Below are positions 47,538-50,715 of a stretch of DNA of 64,000 nt, piece after piece; the first letter of the stretch is position 1; each line of letters starts with the position of its first letter. This DNA is from Methanofollis fontis. GTDB taxonomy: Archaea; Halobacteriota; Methanomicrobia; Methanomicrobiales; Methanofollaceae. Location of the stretch: positions 310,001 to 374,000 of the forward strand of contig NZ_PGCL01000002.1 of assembly GCF_004297185.1 (NCBI RefSeq), in the 5' to 3' direction. A model generated the notes under the pieces. It did no database searches. It was given only the letters and a program-made list of their open reading frames with translations, and was not told where the DNA came from. A program made the position numbers and the translations under genes.

Positions 47538-48806
47538 ATGAGCGATCCTGCAGAGTGTGTGATCCGGAACGCCGTCCTCCCCTCCGGGCGAGTGGCCGAC
47601 CTTGTGCTGGGAGGCGGGCGACTCCTCCATATCGGTGCCGGGGTACGTGCAGACGAGACGATCGACGCATCCGGCCTCATCTGTGTTCCGGGAGCGGTGG
47701 ACATGCACACCCATCTCCGCGGCGGTCCGCAACGCGCCAAGGAGGACTGGAAGAGCGGGACGATGAGCGCCCTCTTCGGGGGGGTGACGGTCGTCGTGGA
47801 CCAGCCGAACACCGTCCCGCCGCTGGTCGATCCTGCTGCATTCGCCGCACGGGTTGCCGAGGCCCGTGAGAATGCCCTCTGTGCCTTCGGCGTGAACGGG
47901 GGTGTGGTGGCCGGGGCCGATCTCCCGGCCCTCTGGCGGGCCGGCGCCCTTGCCTTCGGGGAGATCTTCGCGGGGCCATCGAGTTACGGCGCCGCCGTCC
48001 CCCTGCCGGTGCTTGCAGAGTCGTTCACCGCCATCCAGGGGCTCGGCGCCCTTGCCACCATCCATGCCGAGGACCCCCTTCCCGGTGCACCTGAGGATCT
48101 CCGGGACCACGACCGTCTCAGGCCCGCGGCAACCGAGGCGGCGGCGGTGCAGGATGTCTGCACCATCACCCCTCCTGGTCTATCTATCCACTTCTGCCAT
48201 ATGAGCACGGCCGCGGCGGTGGATGCCGCCTGCGGAAGCGTCGAGGTCACCCCGCACCATCTCTTTCTCTCACTCGAGGGTTTTGAGGCCGACGACACCC
48301 ATGCCCGGATGAACCCGCCCCTCAGGTCGGAAATCGAGAGAAAAGGTCTCTGGAGTCGCTGGGAGAGGATCGATGCGGTGGCGTCGGATCACGCTCCCCA
48401 CACGGCGGCAGAAAAGGCGGTGACCTTTGCCGATGCGCCCTCCGGTGTTCCCGGCGTCGAGACGATGGTCCCCCTGCTGATGGCGGCGGTGCTCGGGAAG
48501 CGGATCTCCCTCTCCTCCCTGATCCAGAAAACGGCGCTGAACCCTGCCCGCATCCTGGGCATCATTCCCGCCGGGTTCACCCCGGGAGAGCGGGCTGATT
48601 TTGCCTTCTATCCCCGCCGCACAGAGAGGATCGAGCCCGACCACCTCCATACGAAGTGCGAATGGACCCCCTTTGAAGGAATGGAGGCGTCATTCCCCCA
48701 ATATGTGGTGATGGAAGGGCGATGCACCGTCCGGAATGGCGACCTCCTGCCGACCAGAGGGCGCTGGATCCCTGGCGGCGGTTATATCGGGACCGCCGAC
48801 AGGTGA
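47538..48806 (+). CDS. pyrC: dihydroorotase
   Basis: This 422-residue class I amidohydrolase has the metal motif DMHTHLRGGPQ near residue 57 and later metal ligands in ATIHAEDPLPG, SIHFCHMSTAA and ASDHAPHTAAEK. It closes carbamoyl aspartate to dihydroorotate in pyrimidine synthesis. The ATG follows GTGATCTG. pyrE and a uracil permease occur in the same window but at separate places. A candidate RNA follows its stop. Confidence 0.95.
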   Translation: MSDPAECVIRNAVLPSGRVADLVLGGGRLLHIGAGVRADETIDASGLICVPGAVDMHTHLRGGPQRAKEDWKSGTMSALFGGVTVVVDQPNTVPPLVDPAAFAARVAEARENALCAFGVNGGVVAGADLPALWRAGALAFGEIFAGPSSYGAAVPLPVLAESFTAIQGLGALATIHAEDPLPGAPEDLRDHDRLRPAATEAAAVQDVCTITPPGLSIHFCHMSTAAAVDAACGSVEVTPHHLFLSLEGFEADDTHARMNPPLRSEIERKGLWSRWERIDAVASDHAPHTAAEKAVTFADAPSGVPGVETMVPLLMAAVLGKRISLSSLIQKTALNPARILGIIPAGFTPGERADFAFYPRRTERIEPDHLHTKCEWTPFEGMEASFPQYVVMEGRCTVRNGDLLPTRGRWIPGGGYIGTADR

Positions 48807-48864
48807 GTGTACCGGTCCAACATTTTTTATCTCTCCTGCGTCGATATATTGGGTGCCGACACAT

Positions 48865-49018
48865 GCACATCCATAGGTCCCCGGGCAATCGATTGGCAGA
48901 GCCTGGATATGAGCTTCGGGACAACCCGGATGTGCGACAGGCGCGCCCGGCGCGAGGGTTAAAACCCGGGAGGAACGGCGCAACGCCACCGATGACTGTA
49001 GGTTGTTAGCGCCGGGCG
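48865..49018 (+). ncRNA. candidate structured RNA between pyrC and the DUF167 gene
   Basis: About 155 bases form two nested domains. Domain 1: GCACATCC (48865-48872) pairs with GGATGTGC (48928-48935), enclosing GTCCC/GGGAC (48877-48881 and 48918-48922) and CGGGC/GCCTG (48882-48886 and 48901-48905). Domain 2: a ten-pair all-GC stem CGCCCGGCGC (48944-48953) with GCGCCGGGCG (49009-49018), enclosing the hairpin GGGT-TAAA-ACCC (48956-48967) and GGCG/CGCC (48977-48987). A TATA-like element lies near 48845. It ends 13 bases before the DUF167 start. No known RNA family is recognised; it could be a free RNA or a leader switch. Confidence 0.5.
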
Positions 49019-49031
49019 ACATGGTGATCAG

Positions 49032-49349
49032 ATGACTGTTTTTACCGATGCCATTTCCGGTTCCGACGATCACGCCGTGATCGCCCTCGATGTCTCCGCA
49101 GGCGCGAAAAAAGAGCGTTTTCCTGCAGGATACAATGAATGGAGAAAGGCGATCGTCTGTCATGTCTCCGCCCCTGCGGTCGGCGGTAAGGCGAACCGTG
49201 CGATCATCGCCTGTGTCGCCGATGCCCTCGGTGTCCGCACCTCTGCCGTCAGCATTCTCTCTGGCGCCACCTCCACACAGAAGAGGGTTGAAGTCCGGGG
49301 AATTTCCCGCGATTCTGTCGCCCAGATCCTGAAAAATCTTTTATCCTGA
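49032..49349 (+). CDS. DUF167 (YggU-like) family protein
   Basis: This 105-residue protein matches DUF167. Characteristic parts are IALDVSAGAKKERFPAGYNE and HVSAPAVGGKANRAIIACVA, followed by a terminal helix (STQKRVEVRGISRDSVAQIL). The function is unknown in most organisms. The ATG has GGTGATC ideally placed before it, at 49023-49029, just after the structured RNA candidate. It stands alone before dnaG. Confidence 0.88.
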   Translation: MTVFTDAISGSDDHAVIALDVSAGAKKERFPAGYNEWRKAIVCHVSAPAVGGKANRAIIACVADALGVRTSAVSILSGATSTQKRVEVRGISRDSVAQILKNLLS

Positions 49350-49391
49350 CGTTTTTCGTCCCCATGCTCCGGGCGAATATTCTCGCGGCGT

Positions 49392-49401
49392 GATATATAA
49401 G
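49392..49401 (+). promoter_or_regulatory. TATA box upstream of dnaG
   Basis: GATATATAAG at 49392-49401 would start transcription near 49422, leaving a leader of about 58 bases. GGAGG at 49469-49473 provides the ribosome binding site for the ATG at 49480. Confidence 0.6.
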
Positions 49402-49479
49402 TAGTTTGTAATGATATCCATACGTGTTATCTATGGTCTGTCATAGCATTCATCGTATGACACATCCTGGAGGCTTCAC

Positions 49480-50715
49480 ATGTACTCATCTGATACGACA
49501 AAGTATCTCATTCACATTAATCTACATGCCGAGGGGGTGGTCGAGAAACCTGATGTAGTCGGGGCCATATTTGGCCAGACTGAAGGGTTGCTCGGCGAAG
49601 ACCTCGACCTGCGCGATCTCCAGCGGACCGGGCGGGTCGGCAGGATTGACGTTCATATTACCAGCAGGAAAGGAGAAACCCGCGGAGAGATCCTGATCTC
49701 GTCCTCCCTCGACCGGGCGGAAACGGCGGTCCTCGCCGCATCCCTGGAGACAATCGACCGTGTGGGGCCGTGCATCGCCCATGCAACGGTGGAGCGGATC
49801 GAGGACATCAGGGTCACGAAACGGAAGAAGATCGTGAACCGGGCGAAGGAGCTGCTGCTCACCCATTTTGACGAGACCTCCATTGATTCCACCGAACTTC
49901 TCGACGACGTCAGGGAATCGATGCGCATCGAGAAGATCGGTGTGCTCGGGGACGAGCGTGTCCCTGCCGGCCCGAATGTCCTGGACTCGGATGCGATCAT
50001 CGTCGTTGAAGGGCGGGCGGACGTGATCAACCTCCTGCGTTACGGCATCAAGAATGCCGTGGCCGTGGAGGGCACAAAGGTGCCTGCTGTGATCACAAAA
50101 CTCTGTGAGATCAAGACCGCTACGGCATTTCTGGACGGTGACCGGGGTGGTGACCTGATCCTCCGCGAACTCCTGCAGGTGGCCGATATCGACTATGTCG
50201 CCTTCTGCCCCCGCGGCAAGAGTGTCGAGGAGATCACCAGAAAGGAGATCATCAAGTCGCTCAGGAACAAGGTGCCGGTGGAATATCTCAAGGACCAGTT
50301 GATCGAGGAGGAGGAGAAACCCTCCCATGAACCTCAGATACCGGTACAGGAGACGGATGTGATCGTTAGCGAGACCAATGGCGGGCAAAAGGATGTCGCC
50401 GTCTCAGATCGTCCTGCCTCTCCGGAGATGACACTTGAAAAACAGATGCAGGAGGTCGAGGGCAGGCATGTGGCCCGATTTCTCACGTCCGATTATGCGC
50501 TTATCGGTGAGGTGAACGCCGAAGAGGTGGAGCAGGCGATCGAACGGATCGATGGAGATGCTGCCGGTGTTGTCATCGATAGAACGGTGGATCAGAAGCT
50601 GATCGACACCTTTCTCTTAAAAGGGGTTGAATTCGTCGGTGCTCCGGAGTTCAAGGACATTGTCAAGAGACCCCTATCGCTGCGCCTCATGAAGATCCGG
50701 AAAGGCGAGAACTGA
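49480..50715 (+). CDS. dnaG: archaeal DnaG-type primase/exosome subunit
   Basis: This 411-residue protein carries a central TOPRIM domain (about 165-250) with the Glu of [17 protein letters not shown] and the Asp-rich [13 protein letters not shown]. The N-terminal [20 protein letters not shown]-like region and the Lys/Glu-rich middle are typical of archaeal DnaG. In archaea this protein is part of the RNA-degrading exosome and can make primers in vitro. The Glu-rich part before the last domain is a flexible linker. A TATA box and a clear ribosome binding site precede it. Confidence 0.94.

Follow-up and report, generated by a model that had tools for sequence, protein, structure and literature searches.

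A probable two-hairpin box H/ACA guide RNA between pyrC and the DUF167 gene of Methanofollis fontis

RESULTS

A conserved structured block between pyrC and DUF167

We analysed a stretch of 64,000 nucleotides of the Methanofollis fontis genome (the window); all the features described below lie on its forward strand. The pyrC gene (47538-48806), encoding a dihydroorotase-like amidohydrolase, is followed by a TATA-like promoter element (48824-48831), which predicts an RNA start about 25 nt downstream, near position 48853, and by a GC-rich spacer that leads to the Shine-Dalgarno sequence GGTGATC (49023-49029) of the DUF167 gene (YggU, PF02594; 49032-49349), itself outside the RNA. A preliminary description of this DNA had placed a candidate structured RNA directly after pyrC, downstream of a TATA-like element and abutting a ribosome binding site, and the gene positions and both sequence elements bear this out. 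A TATA-like sequence 26 to 30 nt upstream of the equivalent of position 48853 was present in 49 of 50 orthologs. The order pyrC, H/ACA RNA (see below), DUF167, dnaG (Toprim), occupying 47538-50715 of the window, is nearly invariant in Methanomicrobiales. Among about 170 loci with room for such neighbours, pyrC lay directly upstream in 161 and DUF167 within 120 to 260 nt downstream in 150, followed by dnaG in 138.

Both of the stems proposed earlier turned out to be correctly placed. Stem 1 pairs GCACATCC (48865-48872) with GGATGTGC (48928-48935) at 8 of 8 positions and reaches 9 bp once U48864-G48936 is counted, and stem 2 pairs CGCCCGGCGC (48944-48953) with GCGCCGGGCG (49009-49018) at 10 of 10 positions, all of them G/C. 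The predicted folding energy of the 154-nt block was -66.8 kcal/mol, compared with -56.8 ± 4.2 in dinucleotide shuffles (z = -2.37; 5/200). Folded singly, the hairpins gave z values of -2.57 (hairpin 1) and -3.01 (hairpin 2), while the minus strand of the block gave only -1.45. The block thus folds better than its shuffles, as the preliminary description had implied. The small nested hairpins within stem 2 are a product of energy folding and not the conserved fold, since covariation backs a single long stem broken by a K-turn.

Orthologs of the block were found by blastn in 52 of the 61 genomes of the order, the window genome included, and a covariance model of hairpin 1 added seven of the nine that blastn had missed, giving 59 of 61; in the other two (G013, 98% complete, and G033, 77%) neither method gave a match to hairpin 1. 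By blastn, conservation begins near 48853 and usually ends at or just past the second of the ACA boxes described below. The block 48865-49018, as first delimited, had its stems right, but the conserved unit really extends from about 48853 to the ACA at 49021, and with an end at 49018 the second ACA box is lost. Ahead of hairpin 1 stands the conserved 5' leader GTGCCGACACA (48853-48863); this GCCGAUA-like sequence is strongly kept across the order, and its role is not obvious (5' end of the RNA or promoter-proximal element).

In 48 distinct orthologs, 80 cells over 12 pairs of hairpin 1 and 91 cells over 16 pairs of hairpin 2 were changed on both sides, against 18 ± 6 and 33 ± 5, respectively, in shuffles. 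The covariation score of either hairpin was reached by none of 500 shuffles, and when partner columns were slid by 1 to 3, the covariation of both collapsed. The compensatory changes that the preliminary description had proposed to look for are thus present in strength in both stems, and of the grounds for refutation given there, lack of covariation and lack of conservation do not apply.

Both hairpins have the parts of an H/ACA motif

In archaea, the box H/ACA motif is a stem that holds both an internal pocket and a K-turn and ends in an ACA box. The decisive feature of the spacer, overlooked in the preliminary description, is the ACA that comes after each stem. Hairpin 1 (48864-48936), delimited by folding and covariation, has the lower stem 48864-48872/48928-48936. 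Its pocket is formed by the 5' guide strand AUAGGUC (48873-48879), of which UAGGUCCCC showed no variation in the 48 orthologs, and the equally invariant 3' guide strand ACAACCC (48921-48927). In the K-turn and its cap (48887-48912), (G/A)A at 48887-48888 stands opposite GA at 48911-48912, with a bulge at 48908-48910, and UC at 48889-48890 pairs with GA at 48906-48907, the capping pairs covarying. The UGA of this K-turn was found in 48 of 48 orthologs and the 5' GA in 47 of the 48 distinct sequences, whereas the window genome reads AA at 48887-48888, a change that would cost the K-turn one of its sheared G-A pairs and that counts against an H/ACA reading. ACA box 1 (48937-48939) lies 14 nt past the closing pair G48877-C48922, is ACA in all 48 orthologs, and completes the order GGATGTGC-G-ACA on the 3' side of stem 1.

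Hairpin 2 (48944-49018), likewise delimited by folding and covariation, has the lower stem 48944-48953/49009-49018. Its 5' guide strand GAGGGUUA (48954-48961) pairs with 23S UGACCCUC, two bases 3' of U1915 (E. coli numbering), and its 3' guide strand GUUA (49005-49008; GTTA in 46 of 48 orthologs) pairs with 23S UAAC immediately 5' of the same uridine. In the K-turn and cap (48970-48995), GA at 48970-48971 stands opposite GA at 48994-48995, with a bulge at 48991-48993, and both the GA and the UGA are present in all 48 orthologs. The capping pairs are 48972-48990 and 48973-48989, the first of which may be GC, AU, UA, CG or UG and is paired in 48 of 48. ACA box 2 (49019-49021; ACA in 47 of 48 orthologs, ATA in one) follows GCGCCGGGCG with no gap, 14 nt past the upper-stem closing pair and one base short of the Shine-Dalgarno sequence. 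Counting against an H/ACA reading is the poor pairing of the hairpin 2 upper stem in the alignment (50% of cells).

The structure, boxes, covariation, homology, rRNA complementarity, and presence of the protein genes are all shown by computation. Published limits for archaeal H/ACA motifs are a lower stem of 7 to 9 bp and an ACA spaced 14 to 16 nt from the upper stem (PMC4652768). The lower stems measure 9 and 10 bp, with six and seven pairs changed on both sides; an ACA (ANA) box stands immediately 3' of each; both upper stems carry a K-turn; and in both hairpins the ACA is spaced 14 nt from the pair that closes the upper stem (16 nt when hairpin 1 is set to U2555). The window genome encodes Cbf5 (337 bits), Nop10 (82 bits), and L7Ae (174 bits), all over the cut-off, together with a weak Gar1 candidate below it (25.4 bits against a curated cut-off of 29.3; E = 2.2e-5).

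The pockets match three uridines of 23S rRNA

All uridines of the 16S and 23S rRNAs of the window genome were scored for pairing of the pocket on both sides of U-N, and the 23S sites were converted to E. coli numbering by alignment with rrlB. Hairpin 1 scored best at 23S position 2586, equivalent to E. coli U2555 (12 bp with one G-U, -20.9 kcal/mol, 0 of 200 shuffled rRNAs), and second best at 2617, equivalent to U2586 (9 bp, -17.1, 7 of 200), the third-ranked uridine scoring only -11.8. For hairpin 2, the best target was 1957, equivalent to U1915 (12 bp with one G-U, -19.5, 2 of 200). Rival targets with ACA distances of 12, 19, or 21 nt were dropped as forbidden. Hairpin 2 thus most likely guides modification of U1915, and perhaps also of U1917, at position 1959 of the window genome's 23S rRNA, and hairpin 1 most likely that of U2555, in the A-loop, and, through a second overlapping register, of U2586, in the peptidyl-transferase ring.

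All three predicted sites agree with sites reported or deduced for homologous guides. In Archaeoglobus fulgidus, Af4.2b was assigned to L2601 and Af4.3 to L1970 (PMC4652768); these lie 631 nt apart. G110, a genome with a strong HgcG match, has the same distance between U1915 and U2555 in its 23S rRNA, and on this equal spacing L2601 is taken to be U2555.

The U2555 register of hairpin 1 uses AUAGGU/ACAACC and the U2586 register GGUC/AACCC. With at most a single mismatch, at an end, both registers pair throughout in 46 of the 48 orthologs, and the remaining two read TTAGGTC and scored short from an alignment gap. Outside this pattern, the guide strands are UUAGGCC ... ACAACA in five genomes that resemble Methanocorpusculum (family f6, genus g16; the name is guessed), with the U2555 register intact and that for U2586 broken. 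In two haloarchaea-like loci, the strands are (U)AGUC ... AGAACCC; most of the U2586 register is kept there, but the U2555 register, intact in the window, is broken. The opposite losses, seen in the guide strands and with only two loci on the haloarchaea-like side, suggest that the registers may be selected separately.

Each register has a structural cost, and both costs count against the guide RNA reading. With the pocket set to U2555, the ACA lies 16 nt away and the stem up to the GA has 8 bp, a fold with a short GA stem of the kind counted as usually nonproductive in Pyrococcus (PMC4652768). Setting it to U2586 requires opening at the base of the upper stem; the possibility of an alternative structure that reaches the 2586 site has been raised for Pab40 (PMC2584109).

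Homologs beyond the order

At the gathering threshold, Rfam gave nothing in the window. A permissive search, however, aligned HgcG/Pab40 (RF00064) over its full length with E = 0.00086, so that the earlier statement that the RNA resembles no class that can be named no longer stands: it is a box H/ACA guide homologous to HgcG/Pab40. Counting against this assignment, the score was 21.1 bits against a gathering score of 77, and the three tandem H/ACA motifs of RF00064 are reduced to two in the window, where conservation begins at 48853. The other two permissive matches had E > 6, and a riboswitch, a tRNA-like element, or another known class was unsupported.

The relationship was also seen from the other side. 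A search of whole genomes of the phylum with RF00064 picked the ortholog locus in two relatives as well (G004 and G040). A model of hairpin 1 (R1) matched in 124 of 295 genomes, and it also matched inside 29 RF00064 (HgcG) loci. Of 28 distant loci, 20 had a match to a model of hairpin 2 (R2) close to hairpin 1; they include the two GC-rich haloarchaea-like loci, where about 40 nt lie between the hairpins. Among named genomes, a pattern scan matched Methanoculleus, Methanoregula, Methanolinea, Methanocalculus, Methanospirillum, Methanofollis, Methanogenium, and Archaeoglobi. Its matches in one MAG each of Acidobacteria and Alcanivorax had no model match and were set aside as chance.

Other readings of the spacer

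The preliminary description had left open a stand-alone small RNA or a cis element controlling DUF167. The stand-alone small RNA, conserved, structured, and with a promoter-like element, stood, whereas its being mainly a cis element did not. A riboswitch-like or L7Ae-bound K-turn leader controlling DUF167 translation would fit the conserved gene order, the DUF167 ribosome binding site just past the second ACA box, and the ability of archaeal L7Ae to regulate translation through leader K-turns (PMC6298567). Yet linkage to DUF167 is not constant: the RNA occurs without an adjoining DUF167 in five Archaeoglobi and Methanocorpusculum-like loci, which makes a DUF167 riboswitch unlikely as its main role. 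Besides, the conserved block stops at the ACA, short of the start codon, and the invariant bases are those of the rRNA guides. Nor did the proposed switch, an alternative CGGG/CCCG pairing (48917-48928), hold up. Only one of its pairs varies, and 9 of 48 orthologs cannot form that pair, whereas 46 retain the lower-stem pair in which base 48928 also takes part; the near-invariance of its GGG and CCC is explained by guide-target pairing. We therefore regard control of DUF167 as a very improbable main function. It is plausible that the sRNA and the mRNA are cut from one common transcript, and a side effect of the RNA on DUF167 translation is possible.

Similarly small is the chance that the RNA belongs to a nonmodifying H/ACA RNP (structural or engaged in rRNA processing) or has other targets, with its rRNA matches incidental. 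Single guide matches are indeed short, and that to U2586 was equalled in shuffled rRNAs at the rate given above, but the top targets fall on sites to which homologous guides of other archaea have been assigned, and in 48 orthologs the guide strands stay invariant within covarying stems. Chance folding of a GC-rich spacer or coding sequence, for instance, the 95-aa open reading frame at 48722-49009, is negligible: GC-rich DNA folds readily and the z score is only -2.4, but covariation in both hairpins and the distant homologs refute it, the frame has no Pfam match, and the length between the conserved ends, 153 to 170 nt depending on the ortholog, does not change in threes.

DISCUSSION

We conclude that the GC-rich spacer between pyrC and DUF167 very probably encodes, over about 170 nt (48853-49024), a two-hairpin archaeal box H/ACA guide sRNA whose orthologs are hairpins 2 and 3 of Pab40/Pf7/Afu4 (HgcG) and HP1/HP2 of Haloferax; we put the probability of this explanation at about 0.95. 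We infer that the locus is transcribed, that its RNA is assembled into an RNP, and that this directs pseudouridine modifications, probably at two or three sites. L7Ae would bind the K-turn of each hairpin and Cbf5, with Nop10 and Gar1, would sit at each ACA box; the internal pocket would present a stretch of rRNA, of which Cbf5 would turn the exposed uridine into pseudouridine.

The class is already well known, and the RNA of the window is an unannotated addition to it with an ordinary mechanism. What is new is the pair of overlapping guide registers in hairpin 1, of which two lineages have each lost a different one. Tentatively, and at somewhat short of even odds for the whole proposal, we suggest that hairpin 1 is a single pocket with two separately selected registers, that loss of one register has shifted the target in some orthologs, and that both registers act in the peptidyl-transferase region and are kept together by most Methanomicrobiales. 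Such a pocket suggests how the targets reported for hairpin 1 of its homologs (U2555 or U2586) can differ. The interest of the RNA is modest and lies in this two-register hairpin and in the fixed linkage to DUF167. For the Methanomicrobiales, the gain is an H/ACA guide RNA that the Rfam threshold had missed, with predicted pseudouridine sites in the catalytic core of the ribosome.

Three known systems invite comparison. Like the RNA of the window, the HP1/HP2 H/ACA RNA of Haloferax volcanii, also called sR-h45, has two hairpins; unlike it, the haloarchaeal hairpins are separated by a long spacer. HP1 was assigned to position 2621 (E. coli 2586) and HP2 to 1956/1958 (1915/1917), and the two have been called homologs of stems II and III of Pf7 (PMC2584109). 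Afu4 of A. fulgidus (Af4.1/4.2/4.3) shares the adjacent hairpins but has three of them where the window RNA has two, and it belongs to the Archaeoglobi, which lack a neighbouring DUF167. HgcG/Pab40/Pf7 (RF00064) of Pyrococcus resembles the RNA of the window in its tandem H/ACA hairpins and full-length alignment. The third hairpin of Pab40, equivalent to hairpin 2 of the window, targets P. abyssi 2016, that is, H. volcanii 1956 and E. coli 1915 (PMC2584109), whereas its first hairpin has no homolog in the window: only 46 nt lie between the end of pyrC and the conserved block. Through the RNA of the Methanomicrobiales, the guides of Archaeoglobus, Haloferax, and Pyrococcus are joined into a single orthologous set.
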